Shown: piece by piece, positions 8,725 to 13,986 of the stretch | Position numbering within the stretch: the stretch's first letter is position 1 | Layout: the number at the start of each line of letters is the position of its first letter | DNA from: Bacteroidales bacterium | GTDB taxonomy: Bacteria; Bacteroidota; Bacteroidia; Bacteroidales; VadinHA17 | Assembly (NCBI GenBank): GCA_003155705.1 | Contig: PMEC01000103.1 | Span: 1 to 15,646 of the forward strand | DNA: 15,646 bases | Direction of reading: 5' to 3' | Translations under genes and position numbers: made by a program | Notes under the pieces: generated by a model | Seen by the model: the letters and a program-made list of their open reading frames with translations, nothing else | Told to the model about the DNA's origin: nothing | The model's database searches: none

Positions 8725-8900
8725 GAATTCCCCGTCAATTAATTTTCAAGATGCTAATAAAACTGATCACTTATCTAATTTTAATGACCTTTGTCACGTT
8801 AATGAGATGATATAAAACAGGAATTTTGTTATTTTGAAGAAATTATTTCAAACAGTGCAACCATTTACTTTTCATAGAAGTCTTAAAATTGTCGTTAGTA

Positions 8901-9452
8901 ATGTTGAATGACCTGCAAATAATAGAAGGATGCGCTAGGCACGAAAGAAGGGCGCAACAGATGCTTTACGACAAGTATTCTCGCTTTCTGCTGGGTATTT
9001 GTTTGAGATATGCAGGAGATAAAGCTGAAGCTGAAGACATTTTGCAGGATAGTTTTTTGAAAATATATTTCAGTATTAAGGATTTTTCGGGGACAGGTTC
9101 TTTCGCAGGATGGTTGAGGAAGGTTGCGGTAAATACGGCAATTACTCATTATCACAAAAACCTGAAGCACAGATATCATATTGAAATTGAGGAATATGTA
9201 TCTATCGAAACAGGGACGAGCAGCTTTGAAGAAAGTTTTTATACTTCAGAGGAGCTTTACATGGTGATGAATGAGTTGCCTTCTGGTTACAGAATGGTTT
9301 TCAACCTTTATGCTATAGAGGGTTATAAGCATAAAGAGATTGCCGAGATGCTTGGCATAGACACTAATACCTCCAAATCGCAGTACAGCAGAGCGAAAGC
9401 GGTTTTACGGGATAAACTGGAGAAACTTGGTAAGTTGAAGAACAGCTATTAA
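8901..9452 (+). CDS. ECF-type sigma-70 family RNA polymerase sigma factor
   Basis: A 183-residue extracytoplasmic-function sigma factor with only regions 2 and 4. Region 2 covers about residues 17-85, with the core-binding and -10-recognition blocks AEAEDILQDSFLKIY (42-56) and TGSFAGWLRKVAVNTA (65-80). Region 4 covers about 118-172, with MNELPSGYRMVFNLY and the helix-turn-helix GYKHKEIAEMLGID then SKSQYSRAKAVLRDKL. I chose the ATG at 8901; a TTG at 8889 in frame would add four residues. The next gene starts 55 bases after the stop and encodes a membrane protein in the anti-sigma position, so the two are probably one operon. Upstream, TACTTTTC (8866-8873) is a near-consensus -7 box without a clear -33. 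Confidence 0.93.
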   Translation: MLNDLQIIEGCARHERRAQQMLYDKYSRFLLGICLRYAGDKAEAEDILQDSFLKIYFSIKDFSGTGSFAGWLRKVAVNTAITHYHKNLKHRYHIEIEEYVSIETGTSSFEESFYTSEELYMVMNELPSGYRMVFNLYAIEGYKHKEIAEMLGIDTNTSKSQYSRAKAVLRDKLEKLGKLKNSY

Positions 9453-9507
9453 AGCAGGTTTTGGAATTAATAAGTTGAATTTAAAAGTGAAGGATAAAAA
9501 AGAAAAT

Positions 9508-10818
9508 ATGAATGTCAGGGAGTTATTCAGGGACAAACTTGAAAACTCAGAAGTAATCCCGGGTGATTCAGTCAGAAATGAACTGATGCGCAAGGTGGCG
9601 ATAAAAGAATTCATGCTCTACAATCCTTCACGGTTTAATATATATTATTTAGGCGGCATTGCAGCTGCTGCCCTTGCTTCAATTCTCATAATTACATCTA
9701 AACCTGATGTAATTAAAAATCAAAAGGAAGAGTTTAAAATTGAGAACTCAAAATCGTTAGATACGTTATCGTCTGTTCAACCTCAAAAACAACTTCCTGT
9801 AGAAAGAACCACAGAACCCGAACGCGTTGTCAAAAGTACTTCTAATAAGACTGTTCCAAAAATATCTGAAATTAATTATAGTGTCAAAAAACTTGATAAT
9901 GTAGTAATTGATAATAAGAAAGAAGCCGGTTCCACTGTTAAGCCCGATTCCTTAAAGATCAAAGCAATACTTCAGAATAAAGTTTCAGATAAAGACAATC
10001 TGGTTCAACTGCAAAGAAATATTGGAGCAGCATTCAATGTGTCAGTATCTGGCGGCTGCTTGCCCTTAAAGGTAAAGTTTCAGAATAAATCCACCTCATA
10101 CGATTCCTGCCACTGGATATTCGGCGACGGCGGGTTCTCAAATGAGAAGAACCCGGAATGGATTTTTGACCAGGAGGGAGAATATAAAATTATTTTAAAA
10201 GTTTTCAACACTGGAGGTAATCAGGCAATTACCTCATCAGTAATAACCGTTCATCCCAGGCCCGTTGCCCGTTTTGAGACAGCTCCTGAGAAACCAATCA
10301 TTCCTGATGATGATATCAGGTTCATTAATTATTCAAATGATGCAGTAAGATACAAATGGGAGTTTGGTGATGGAAATTATTCAGATGCCTTTGAACCTGA
10401 CCATCGATACAGACAATATGGCAATTATAATGTAAGGCTGATAGTATGGTCATCATATGGATGTACTGATTCGATGCTTGTGAAAAATGCATTCTCAGGA
10501 TCGGGTTGTTTTATCGATTTTCCTAATGCTTTTATTCCCGGTTCAGGAGGTCCTGCAGGGGGCTATTATTCAATCAAGAGCGACGAAGCTGCCCGTATTT
10601 TTCATCCTTCTACTTCCGGAGTTACTGATTACCATCTTAAAATATTCAGCAAGCTTGGAATTCCTATATTTGAGAGCAATGATATTAATATTGGTTGGGA
10701 TGGATATATTAAAGGACAACTCTGTGAGCCCGGAGTTTATATCTGGAAGGTGAGAGGTACATTCAAAAACGGAGAGCCTTTTGTTAAGATGGGAGATGTT
10801 ACATTGCTTAAAGATTGA
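9508..10818 (+). CDS. membrane-anchored PKD-domain protein with T9SS-type C-terminal domain; putative anti-sigma/sensor
   Basis: A 436-residue protein with an unusual order of parts. Residues 1-45 are polar and charged (cytoplasmic by the positive-inside rule). Residues 46-63 form one transmembrane helix, and about 65-172 form a low-complexity polar linker. Two PKD domains follow, at about 176-249 with WIFGDGG and 250-330 with WEFGDGN. The last about 100 residues resemble the CHU_C/gliding-motility type-B C-terminal domain: FPNAFIPG, YHLKIFSKLGIPIFES, GWDG, EPGVYIWKV, GDVTLLKD. Classic type-B cargo has a cleavable signal peptide, but here a cytoplasmic tail precedes the helix. Placed right after the sigma factor, it may hold it at the membrane. 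I see no known anti-sigma motif, so that role is inference. The ATG at 9508 follows an A-rich leader; a TTG at 9475 is in frame. Confidence 0.82.
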   Translation: MNVRELFRDKLENSEVIPGDSVRNELMRKVAIKEFMLYNPSRFNIYYLGGIAAAALASILIITSKPDVIKNQKEEFKIENSKSLDTLSSVQPQKQLPVERTTEPERVVKSTSNKTVPKISEINYSVKKLDNVVIDNKKEAGSTVKPDSLKIKAILQNKVSDKDNLVQLQRNIGAAFNVSVSGGCLPLKVKFQNKSTSYDSCHWIFGDGGFSNEKNPEWIFDQEGEYKIILKVFNTGGNQAITSSVITVHPRPVARFETAPEKPIIPDDDIRFINYSNDAVRYKWEFGDGNYSDAFEPDHRYRQYGNYNVRLIVWSSYGCTDSMLVKNAFSGSGCFIDFPNAFIPGSGGPAGGYYSIKSDEAARIFHPSTSGVTDYHLKIFSKLGIPIFESNDINIGWDGYIKGQLCEPGVYIWKVRGTFKNGEPFVKMGDVTLLKD

Positions 10819-10859
10819 GATTAATTGAAGTGCTTATAATATTTTCTTGTTATTCATCT

Positions 10860-10896
10860 AACAATTACTAATCTTCATCTATAATAAGTAATTGTT
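10860..10896. repeat. 10-bp inverted repeat upstream of porP-like gene
   Basis: AACAATTACT and AGTAATTGTT form a perfect 10-bp inverted repeat with a 17-base loop, in the 189-base gap between the PKD protein gene and the porP-like gene. The stem is AT-rich and is followed only by TTTGTTG, so it is a weak terminator at best. It could also be a binding site for a dimeric regulator. Confidence 0.5.
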
Positions 10897-11007
10897 TGTT
10901 GAAATATTCCCATTCTATATAACCTTTAGGGCAAAATTTCGTTAAATAAGTAATGAATTTTAAATTCAATTGACTATTTTCGTCAAGAGAAACCTAATTC
11001 TCCGATT

Positions 11008-11997
11008 TTGCTAAAGAAGTTAAAATATTTAGTCTTTATTTTCTCAATATTTTCTATTGATTGCTTTGGGCAGGATCCGACTTTTTCCCAGTTTTATGCC
11101 AATCCACTTTATCTTTCGCCATCTTTCGCTGGAGCAACTGATGAATACCGTTTTGCAATGAACGTCAGAGACCAGTGGCCATCTGTCCCGGGCGTTTTTC
11201 AAACTTACAGCATAAGCCTCGACAAGGCAATGCCCAATTTCAATTCAGGAATAGGAGTCCTTGCAACTTATGATGTAGCAGGTTCAGGTGATCTGAGCAC
11301 AACAAATATTGGTATTCTTTATTCCTATGACTTCAATATTAATAAGCAATGGCATATCCGACCTGGCGTTAATTTTAAATTCTACTATCTTGGTCTGGAT
11401 ATCGCTAAACTTGTTTTTAACAGCCAGATTACAGGTAGCGGGACAACACCTCCTATATCGCCACCTCCATTCAATAAAGTCGCAGATATAGATTTTGCCA
11501 CCTCTGCACTTATATATGATGATCAGGTTTGGGCCGGGGTTACTCTGGATCATCTATTTACTCCAAAACAATCTTTCTACGGAGACGACTCCAAATTGCC
11601 AATTAAGTTCAATCTATATGGAGGAATACGCCTTATTGGTCAGACCAGGCTCAGAAGAAAGCTTTCAGAAGCGCTTTCAGTGGCAACCAACTTTCAGATT
11701 CAGGGCAAATTCTACCAGACTGACATAGGGCTTTATTATTTTAAGGAACCTCTGATCTTCGGTATCTGGTACAGGGGAATTCCTTTCATGACTTCTCAGG
11801 CAGGAGATGCAATAATAGGGCTTATCGGAATTAAAACTAAACAATTACATATTGGGTACAGTTACGACTTTACTATTTCAAATCTGATTGCTTCAACAGG
11901 AGGAGCTCATGAGATTTCACTCGTCTATGAGTTCAATTCATTCTCTATTGGGGGCTCAAGGAAAAAAATCCACGCTATTCCATGTCCTGAGTTCTGA
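11008..11997 (+). CDS. PorP/SprF family type IX secretion system membrane protein
   Basis: A 329-residue outer-membrane beta-barrel of the PorP/SprF family. Members are associated with T9SS, and many are encoded next to cargo that carries type-B C-terminal domains, which they help to secrete or attach. The start is TTG: no ATG or GTG occurs in frame between the upstream stop at 10954 and a typical signal peptide, LKKLKYLVFIFSIFSIDCFG. The mature protein begins with the family block DPTFSQFYANPLYLSPSFAG (23-42), followed by NVRDQWP and many alternating beta strands. It ends in IHAIPCPEF, the usual PorP C-terminal cysteine signature. A weak -7 box TATTTTCG is at 10975-10982. The preceding gene encodes a protein with a T9SS type-B domain, which fits this family's usual partnership. 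Confidence 0.93.
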   Translation: MLKKLKYLVFIFSIFSIDCFGQDPTFSQFYANPLYLSPSFAGATDEYRFAMNVRDQWPSVPGVFQTYSISLDKAMPNFNSGIGVLATYDVAGSGDLSTTNIGILYSYDFNINKQWHIRPGVNFKFYYLGLDIAKLVFNSQITGSGTTPPISPPPFNKVADIDFATSALIYDDQVWAGVTLDHLFTPKQSFYGDDSKLPIKFNLYGGIRLIGQTRLRRKLSEALSVATNFQIQGKFYQTDIGLYYFKEPLIFGIWYRGIPFMTSQAGDAIIGLIGIKTKQLHIGYSYDFTISNLIASTGGAHEISLVYEFNSFSIGGSRKKIHAIPCPEF

Positions 11998-12117: not shown

Positions 12118-12717
12118 ATGAAGAAACTAACTGTTATTCTGTTCGTTGTTCTGTTCTTAGCTGTTGCAGTTCTATATTTTTTCCAGTTTAAAGGCAATAA
12201 CAAAGCCAACAAAATCAATGTGTCCGGAACTATTAATGAAATGCCCGGACAGGGAATCGTATATGTAAATATAGACTCAGTTATATTCAATTTCAAGATG
12301 TTCACTGACAGGAAAAATGATTTAATGTCGAAACAGAAAAATGCAGAAGCTGAGCTGAATTCAAAAAGCGCTCTGTATCAGAATGGTGTAAAAGATTACC
12401 AGGATAAGGTTAACAAAGGGCTGGTCACAAGGGCAACTGCCGCTGATATGGAACAGGGACTTCTTCAGCAGCAGCAGGAACTCGTTAATCTTCGCGACAA
12501 ACTTCAATCAAACCTTGTCGAGGAAGAACAGGTTATGAACCGTCAGATACTCGATTACATAACAAAGTTCATTGAAGATAACAAGACGCAATATAATTAT
12601 CAATTCATTCTTGGTAAAAGTTTCGGAGGTCCGGTTCTCTATAGCAATAGTTCTCTGGAGATAACCCAGCAGTTACTTACTGCACTGAATAAAAAATATC
12701 AGACCGAGAAAAAATAA
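12118..12717 (+). CDS. OmpH/Skp-like periplasmic protein
   Basis: A 199-residue protein with an N-terminal hydrophobic helix (about 4-22), a short linker, the beta strand IVYVNIDSVIFNF (47-59), a long charged coiled coil (about 60-150) and a C-terminal strand region with YQFILGKSFGGPVLYSN (161-177). This is the OmpH/Skp family layout, in which trimeric coiled-coil arms hold unfolded outer-membrane proteins in the periplasm. No clear AxA cleavage site follows the helix, so the protein may remain anchored to the inner membrane. It is not next to bamA or lpxD, where skp genes are often found. Instead it sits after a porP-like gene and 6 bases before a glycosyltransferase gene. Confidence 0.82.
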   Translation: MKKLTVILFVVLFLAVAVLYFFQFKGNNKANKINVSGTINEMPGQGIVYVNIDSVIFNFKMFTDRKNDLMSKQKNAEAELNSKSALYQNGVKDYQDKVNKGLVTRATAADMEQGLLQQQQELVNLRDKLQSNLVEEEQVMNRQILDYITKFIEDNKTQYNYQFILGKSFGGPVLYSNSSLEITQQLLTALNKKYQTEKK

Positions 12718-12723
12718 CAAAAA

Positions 12724-13986
12724 ATGAGTTTTGCCACGTCCTGGCTGGAGTCTGGCACATTATTTCCTTTACTTATTGATGAGGCGCCTGATAAGTCTAC
12801 AGGTATAATTGTCGTTGTACCTGCTTATGATGAGCCTTCTATAATAGAAATGATTGATTCACTGGCTCTATGCAACCAGCCTTTATGCAAGACGGAGGTA
12901 ATAATTATTATAAATGCAGCCTTAAATGCCTCCGCAGAAAGTCTGGGAAATAATCGTGACACATTTAATACAATAGAGAAGTGGAAGAAGAAAAACACAA
13001 AATGCTTCTTTAGGATTTACGCAATAAACCTGGGTACGCCAGATATAAAGAATTGGGGAGTGGGTCTGGCAAGAAAAGCAGGAATGGATGAAGCCGCTAA
13101 AAGATTCAACTTAATTGACAAACCCGACGGAATAATTGCAAATCTTGATGCGGACTGCACTGTCCGGAAAAACTATTTTGTATCACTCGAAAATGAATTG
13201 TTAAAAAGAAAGGATAGAAAAGGTTGCTCAATTTATTTTGAACATCCGGTTACAGGAGACAGATTCCCGGTAAAGGTTTACGATGCAATATATCAGTACG
13301 AACTACATCTCAGATATTTGTTTCAGGCCCTTTCCTATACTGGTTTTCCAAATGTTTTTCATACAGTTGGTTCTTCAATTGCCATCAAATGCCTTTCATA
13401 TGTTAAAGCAGGGGGCATGAATCGCAGGCAGGCAGGGGAGGATTTCTATTTTGTACAGAAACTTGTTCCTGCCGGAGGATATTTCAGTCTTAATTCAACT
13501 GCAGTTTATCCTTCACCCAGAGCTTCTGAAAGGGTGCCATTTGGTACAGGGGCTGCCGTAGGAAAGATGTTATCAGAGAATGGAAATAATTTCATGACGT
13601 ATAACCCATTGGCATTCAGGGATCTTTATCTTTTTTTCGAATATTTGAAGAAGATATTCGAAAGAGATAATGAGGAACTAGTTGAATTATCTTACGGTTT
13701 TCCGGAGAGCATAAAGATTTTTCTTGAAGAGCAAAAATGGCTTTTAAAGATTACTGAAATAAAAAACAATACTGCCGGGTTCGTCTCTTTCAGAAAAAGA
13801 TTCTTTGATTGGTTTAATATGTTTAAGGTTGTCAAATACCTTAATTTCAGTCATAAATCGATTTTCAAAAAAATACCGGTAAGCCTGGCTGCTAAAGAAC
13901 TGATGAGATATATGAAAATGGATGTGATGATCGAAAAAGATATGAAATTGCTTCAGATCTACCGGAACATGGAAAAATCTGACTAA
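12724..13986 (+). CDS. family 2-like glycosyltransferase
   Basis: A 420-residue protein with a GT-A fold N-terminal domain. VVVPAYDEPSI (30-40) is the nucleotide-binding first strand, WGVGLARKAGMDEA (111-124) is the helix near the sugar nucleotide, and NLDADCTV (140-147) carries the DxD-type metal-binding motif. AGEDFYFVQKL (237-247) contains the ED pair that supplies the catalytic base region in GT2 enzymes. After about residue 290 the sequence is a lysine-rich, mostly helical extension of unknown role. No transmembrane helix is apparent, so it is likely a cytoplasmic or peripheral membrane enzyme. Donor and acceptor are unknown. It follows the ompH-like gene by 6 bases, and its stop codon interleaves with that of the convergent divIC-like gene (4-base overlap). 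Confidence 0.83.
   Translation: MSFATSWLESGTLFPLLIDEAPDKSTGIIVVVPAYDEPSIIEMIDSLALCNQPLCKTEVIIIINAALNASAESLGNNRDTFNTIEKWKKKNTKCFFRIYAINLGTPDIKNWGVGLARKAGMDEAAKRFNLIDKPDGIIANLDADCTVRKNYFVSLENELLKRKDRKGCSIYFEHPVTGDRFPVKVYDAIYQYELHLRYLFQALSYTGFPNVFHTVGSSIAIKCLSYVKAGGMNRRQAGEDFYFVQKLVPAGGYFSLNSTAVYPSPRASERVPFGTGAAVGKMLSENGNNFMTYNPLAFRDLYLFFEYLKKIFERDNEELVELSYGFPESIKIFLEEQKWLLKITEIKNNTAGFVSFRKRFFDWFNMFKVVKYLNFSHKSIFKKIPVSLAAKELMRYMKMDVMIEKDMKLLQIYRNMEKSD

Follow-up and report, generated by a model that had tools for sequence, protein, structure and literature searches.

A putative trans-envelope sigma/anti-sigma switch beside a PorP/SprF-family gene in Bacteroidales

The window studied here, a stretch of 15,646 nucleotides forming contig C17 (PMEC01000103.1) of a 3.2-Mb, 76% complete Bacteroidales genome (G000), carries on its forward strand consecutive genes for an extracytoplasmic function (ECF) sigma factor, a membrane protein with PKD domains (the PKD protein) and an outer-membrane barrel of the PorP/SprF family. 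Judged from its tail family and gene neighbourhood, the PKD protein is very likely the anti-sigma partner of the sigma factor. We hold it probable, with some reserve, that the trio is a trans-envelope sigma/anti-sigma switch, similar to the Dma family but with the outer-membrane part split off, and that it is read out through docking of the PKD protein on PorP or on the type IX secretion system (T9SS). The finding comprises an obligate pair, a newly delimited tail, a T9SS-type end replacing the barrel of Dma, and a predicted regulon of giant surface proteins. The features are as follows.

8856..8882, forward strand: ECF-type promoter of the sigma gene, TGCAACC-N17-GTC (motif upstream of the sigma genes of relatives; window scan)
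8901..9452, forward strand: ECF sigma factor, regions 2 and 4 (PF04542, 57.6 bits; PF08281, 57.9 bits; TIGR02937, 99.7 bits)
9508..10818, forward strand: putative trans-envelope anti-sigma protein, 436 aa (open reading frame, homologues, structure model)
9508..9633, forward strand: its cytoplasmic tail of ~42 residues, a predicted modular two-helix anti-sigma domain (profile A1, model helices)
9634..9702, forward strand: inner-membrane helix, approximate limits (model helix)
9703..10017, forward strand: disordered tether of ~100 residues (length conserved, sequence not; low model confidence)
10018..10506, forward strand: two PKD domains, the second from ~10252 (PF18911 over two stretches, model)
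10507..10815, forward strand: T9SS type-B-like C-terminal domain (PF13585 and TIGR04131 at the level of the family; most conserved segment)
10973..10984, forward strand: ACTATTTTCGTC, a conserved element ahead of PorP that does not resemble the sigma motif (aligned upstream regions of PorP, window scan)
11008..11997, forward strand: PorP/SprF-family outer-membrane barrel (PF11751, 197.8 bits; TIGR03519, 215.5 bits)
11980-11994, forward strand: C-terminal tail of PorP, PCPEF, with the conserved Cys of the PCP motif

The gene order and domain layout described in an earlier note on this DNA are confirmed by profile matches and by a structure model: the sigma factor has regions 2 and 4 (Sigma70_r2 and Sigma70_r4_2), the third gene encodes a PorP/SprF protein, and the PKD protein between them has one membrane helix, a long linker and two PKD domains (PF18911, 78.7 bits). 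The model of the PKD protein (mean predicted local distance difference test score, pLDDT, 73) shows helices at residues 2-10 and 19-35, the membrane helix at 44-62, the linker at 66-166 with pLDDT under 50, and beta domains thereafter. The protein is likely to start at ATG 9508; the listed open reading frame (ORF) opens at TTG 9475. The earlier note had also considered that the helix might prove to be a cleaved signal peptide. This was rejected because, in the model, a helical tail of ~42 residues lies in front of it, so that the helix is apparently neither an ordinary cleaved signal peptide nor the Sec signal peptide typical of type-B cargo.

Conservation of the trio and the anti-sigma tail

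Two partly overlapping samples of loci were compared; the first includes 40 loci of the genus (L002-L041) and seven full-length loci of other families (L042, L044-L049), and the second consists of 80 related loci, 66 of which hold a full-length protein including the tail. Nearly all of the 80 belong to Bacteroidales or Bacteroidota metagenome-assembled genomes (MAGs). No cultured named species with a full-length homologue is among them, and the match of the one cultured species listed, Thermophagus xiamenensis, is restricted to the C-terminal part. A sigma gene stands before the PKD gene in all 40 genus loci (two sigma genes are cut by the contig start) and in 7/7 loci of other families, and in the second sample it directly precedes the full-length PKD protein in 65/65 testable cases. 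PorP comes next in 38 of the 39 genus loci where the contig continues (G041 being the exception), adjoins in one of the seven other-family loci, and follows in 55/61 testable loci of the second sample with gaps of 37-364 bp, being kept down to anti-sigma proteins of ~34% identity. Because it is conserved in dozens of loci, the order of the trio is not a matter of chance, and its conservation outside the source genome, put forward in the earlier note as a test, is borne out.

Gene presence was read by eye in a set of 58 genomes of the genus. The sigma and anti-sigma genes occur together in 42 and are jointly missing from 14, and the two mismatches are G056, with a partial sigma gene, and G047, with an anti-sigma end at a contig edge. 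PorP occurs in 54 of the 58, in 42 together with the anti-sigma gene and in 12 without it. From this pattern, the sigma factor and the PKD protein behave as an obligate pair, and PorP as a frequent but separable companion. A remnant of a lost trio, comprising the sigma promoter and the first sigma codons, lies at ~2160-2458 of L220 (G050:C46), between the OmpH and proline dehydrogenase genes.

The earlier note recognised no anti-sigma domain in the N-terminal tail; in agreement with this, the window protein matches no curated anti-sigma model in Pfam or NCBIfam and has no FecR domain. A profile (A1) was made from 25 tails and searched in 296 Bacteroidota genomes, which gave 52 rows in 46 genomes; two rows were dropped, one a frame of only 48 aa and the other a frame of 34 aa containing stops. 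For each of the 50 usable tail proteins, that of the window included, the gene immediately upstream is an ECF sigma gene in the same orientation. In the 42 of them outside the window whose distal parts were scanned, 15 match PF13568 and 15 match PF13505, both outer-membrane barrels, and none matches a PKD or CHU_C domain. Profile-profile comparison of two tail sets gave 98.8%, which is not independent because the first profile had served to find the second set. The source genome itself has a second sigma/anti-sigma pair with the same tail, a Dma-like paralogue at 1255-3121 of L092 (G000:C137); in its model, of low mean confidence (58.5), a helix is followed by ~117 residues that score below pLDDT 50, and the protein closes with a barrel whose PDB matches include OmpA, OmpW and OmpX. 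At 975-2084 of L401 (G169:C27), the anti-sigma N-terminus seems to carry the tail motif twice in tandem.

On the evidence of sequence, then, the tail is a modular two-helix domain of anti-sigma type, newly delimited here, and the sigma/anti-sigma pairing is strongly supported; the anti-sigma position that the earlier note gave to the PKD protein holds up in both the tail family and the joint presence and absence of the two genes. The tail resembles, by prediction, the short two-helix class II anti-sigma domains such as CnrY (PMC7406223, PMC8103513). Just ~6% of the ECF sigma factors of Bacteroidetes are encoded near a class I anti-sigma domain, and PMC7406223, the source of this figure, suggests that other anti-sigma classes may dominate in the phylum. 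The short tail motif marks such partners and is directly searchable.

The closest known arrangement, known here by description, is the Dma family, in which an anti-sigma domain is followed by a membrane helix, a disordered tether and a barrel, with an ECF21 sigma gene adjoining (PMC13088901); a pair similar to Dma is described in Phocaeicola vulgatus (PMC9308784). The window protein shares with Dma the adjacent sigma gene, which is identified here at the ECF level, the N-terminal anti-sigma domain, the single membrane helix, the long disordered tether and a part meant for the outer membrane. Unlike Dma, it ends in two PKD domains and a T9SS type-B-like domain, and the barrel, PorP, is a separate gene next to it. 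Since the first three parts are kept and the barrel is replaced, we call it a "split Dma" and not a member of Dma.

The promoter motif and the predicted regulon

TGCAACC-N17-GTC has one exact match in the window, and together with the starts of relatives this conserved promoter favours ATG 8901 as the likely start of the sigma gene, though TTG 8889 is another possible opening of the frame. GCAAC stands upstream of all 46 first-sample sigma genes with enough sequence, and the strict two-box motif upstream of 42 of these, the four others being those of the divergent other-family loci L044, L047, L048 and L049; in the second sample, the strict motif precedes 61/62 sigma genes. TGCAACC also stands before the sigma genes of several other pairs that share the same tail, and is therefore a wider ECF-type box. 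Between the sigma gene and the divergent proline dehydrogenase gene, a palindrome-like AATGACCTTTGTCA at 8783-8796 is well conserved in the genus. It was set aside as a sigma box, being exact in the sigma-less locus L053 (G022) and having one exact copy in the genome, and is probably an operator of the proline dehydrogenase side.

The pattern TGCAACC-N17-GTCWT occurs 160 times in the 58 genus genomes, against 12 times for the reversed pattern. Of these, 117 distinct matches were classed, the rest being mainly the sigma genes' own promoters and matches outside the listing. Four were scored as a sigma gene, 42 lie inside genes and 13 have nothing beside them. The largest class, 43 matches, sits 13-240 bp before ORFs with an N-terminal hydrophobic stretch that are at least 450 aa long or still open at the end of the fetched stretch or contig; five of these encode the sugar transferase discussed below, and one of the 43 is in a sigma-less genome. 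The remaining 15 precede other ORFs: two more sigma genes, nine genes of a DUF1573 protein, the sugar-transferase gene found in the window's genome, the remnant in G050 and two others. Regulon-type matches were found in 30 of 44 sigma-positive genomes (G047 included) versus one of 14 sigma-less genomes, the one being G045 (p 9e-5, kinship not corrected).

Three kinds of predicted target stand out. First, a match in G014 is followed after 48 bp by a complete ORF of 5,503 aa with PKD and CHU_C domains, and the end of this giant protein is related to the anti-sigma C-terminus. The giant genes of the sigma-less G007 and G054 have no motif within three mismatches, and their upstream neighbour is of the same type as in G026. 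Second, a PF02397 sugar-transferase gene, whose product might act in making a glycan of the cell surface, carries the motif upstream with at most two mismatches in 17 of 25 sigma-positive and 0/5 sigma-less genomes (4% for shuffled sequences), two of the 25 upstream regions being shorter than 150 bp. Copies with the sigma motif upstream are seen at 1618-3015 of L273 and, in the window's genome, at 491-1396 of L157. Third, a 366-aa DUF1573 protein has the motif just upstream at 1560-2654 of L239 and in eight further copies of the genus. A regulon of giant surface proteins, the sugar transferase and the DUF1573 protein is moderately supported, as a prediction from promoter matches.

The C-terminal domain, PorP and the proposed mechanism

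The linker is 89-110 aa long in 47 homologues, one more having been dropped for its broken N-terminus, and its mean identity is only ~15%. A hundred residues stretch to ~35 nm, enough to span the periplasm. Within the genus, the tail is 57% identical, the PKD domains 49-54% and the C-terminal domain 72%, the highest value of any segment. The earlier note called the C-terminal domain type-B and CHU_C-like. This stands at the family level, since aligned members match PF13585 in 30/30 and TIGR04131 in 25/30 cases at E<=0.01; the window member itself falls under both cut-offs. Compared by sequence with solved structures, the PKD protein matches in its PKD domains only, and a fold search returned Ig/PKD-like proteins, the highest ranks being mainly giant adhesins; none of the matches listed was a T9SS type-B end. 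In a tree of 57 C-terminal regions, 35/35 verified anti-sigma proteins form one group (97/93), which adjoins the C-terminal domains of large T9SS-type cargo; several rows are long-branched. The anti-sigma label covers 36 rows in this tree, the additional one being L050 (G063), which lies beside PorP and was not counted as an anti-sigma end: its N-terminus lies beyond the contig, and it groups with cargo in the tree. The tree fits the idea of the earlier note that the protein may be a non-secreted mimic of cargo.

PorP/SprF proteins bind type-B ends (PMC9143113, PMC12618676), which makes docking of the C-terminal domain on PorP or on the translocon probable. Like T9SS type-B cargo with its cognate PorP/SprF protein, the PKD protein has PKD domains, a type-B-like end and a PorP gene next door; unlike such cargo, it has an inner-membrane anchor behind a cytoplasmic tail and an adjacent sigma gene, and its C-terminal domains form a group of their own. 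The PorP proteins beside anti-sigma genes (27) fall within one clade of 35 rows (100/100), of which four stand beside cargo-type genes and four are without such a gene in the stretch. The Cys in the PCP motif of the PorP tail is conserved in 51/52 proteins, the exception being cut by a contig end. In Flavobacterium johnsoniae, cysteines in the tails of SprF and PorG form disulfide bonds with GldK (PMC12635249), and by analogy we infer that the PorP tail cysteine may be linked in the same way here. The element ACTATTTTCGTC was not seen by eye in the three sigma-less loci.

The switch would work as follows. The tail would hold the sigma factor, and the tether would let the two PKD domains and the C-terminal domain reach the outer membrane, where the latter would dock on PorP or on the T9SS translocon as cargo does, the inner anchor preventing it from leaving. 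Docking would change once real cargo fills PorP, once PorP is blocked, or once the T9SS/gliding track pulls on it. Cleavage or a shift of the anti-sigma protein would then free the sigma factor to drive its own operon, the sugar transferase, the DUF1573 protein and giant surface proteins, of which at least one has a related T9SS end. Sensing through PorP or T9SS is a proposal, and the PorP step is a good hypothesis, not a result.

FecI/FecR, in which the state of an outer-membrane protein is read across the periplasm by an anti-sigma protein, would work alike, with PorP/T9SS here taking the place of the TonB-dependent receptor; the window has no FecR domain. Connections between ECF sigma factors and T9SS are known from other species. 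F. psychrophilum is described as having an ECF-type motif in front of T9SS genes as well as a sigma/anti-sigma pair (PMC9723704), and in the PorA/PorXY/SigP system of Porphyromonas gingivalis a T9SS-CTD protein influences an ECF sigma factor and T9SS gene expression (PMC7712824). The latter is a two-component route; a one-protein anti-sigma route is proposed here.

Competing readings and significance

Several observations weigh against a switch that reads PorP or T9SS and controls giant cargo. PorP is retained in the 12 genomes without the pair, and it is not beside the anti-sigma gene in G041 and in six of the seven other-family loci. PorP was also rejected as a target of the sigma factor, the motif being found within one mismatch in only 1/40 PorP upstream regions and within two in 2/40. 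The C-terminal domain of the window scores 20.0 bits with PF13585 against a cut-off of 27, and E 0.094 with TIGR04131. The giant cargo end is present in 18 of the 58 genomes and tied to neither the sigma pair, the anti-sigma gene nor PorP, and the ends of most giant ORFs are undefined because they run off their contigs. G045, 89% complete, has three regulon-type matches and no sigma gene found, and other sigma factors may read TGCAACC promoters. Moreover, the genomes are MAGs, and the Fisher p-values ignore the kinship between them.

The most serious alternative, possible but doubtful in our view, accepts the pair as real and lets the PKD and C-terminal domains sense a glycan, peptidoglycan or another outer-membrane protein, PorP being merely a neighbouring shuttle for surface cargo. 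PorP does have conserved neighbours apart from the pair: genes for an OmpH-like protein and a family 2 glycosyltransferase (12118-13986 in the window) come after it in 8/8 and 6/8 genus loci of enough length, respectively, and both persist in the sigma-less L051-L053. Its presence with OmpH where the pair is missing, its rare adjacency in other families and the lack of a sigma motif within two mismatches in 38/40 upstream regions all agree with this alternative. Against it speak the 55/61 second-sample loci in which PorP follows even strongly diverged anti-sigma proteins, the single clade of 35 rows holding the anti-sigma-linked PorP proteins, and the C-terminal domain as the most conserved segment.

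It is improbable that the C-terminal domain is a relic whose sole role is to park the protein close to the outer membrane, with general envelope stress or intermembrane distance as the signal, as may hold for barrel-type Dma. The conserved length and unconserved sequence of the tether, and the sharing of tail and tether with barrel-ended relatives, would suit this. The domain is nevertheless conserved above all other segments, more than parking should need, and the predicted targets include T9SS-type cargo. Finally, a reading of the PKD protein as normal T9SS cargo whose signal peptide is cleaved, beside an accidental sigma gene, is strongly disfavoured, for although type-B cargo typically has PKD domains, a CHU_C-like end and PorP as a neighbour, the helical tail before the helix, the invariable adjacency of sigma genes (65/65; 50/50 for the tail family) and the joint loss with the sigma gene speak against it.

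For the switch read out through PorP or T9SS docking, a more specific version is offered tentatively: the anti-sigma protein may be a tethered decoy cargo, and competition by giant cargo, or a pull of the proton-driven track on PorP, perhaps through its tail Cys, would determine the amount of free sigma factor, which in turn would make the giant cargo. PorP and giant cargo as a strict pair was tried and showed no association (PorP in 16/18 genomes with the cargo end and 38/40 without it). Where the sequence continues past the gene with the giant cargo end, as it does in three cases (L217-L219), no PorP adjoins this gene, and in F. johnsoniae three orphan type-B proteins share one shuttle (PMC12618676); the giant cargo could therefore share the PorP of this locus. 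In the literature, surveyed under open licence only, no anti-sigma protein with a T9SS end and no such export sensor were found.

If the decoy version is true, the trio would be a flux- or force-sensing feedback between secretion and transcription, a split version of Dma. Since the apparent targets of the switch include giant surface proteins, the cell may be sensing its own outer-membrane secretion route. Should the C-terminal domain indeed dock on PorP, these bacteria would measure their own T9SS export/gliding machinery and tune the production of giant surface proteins to it.

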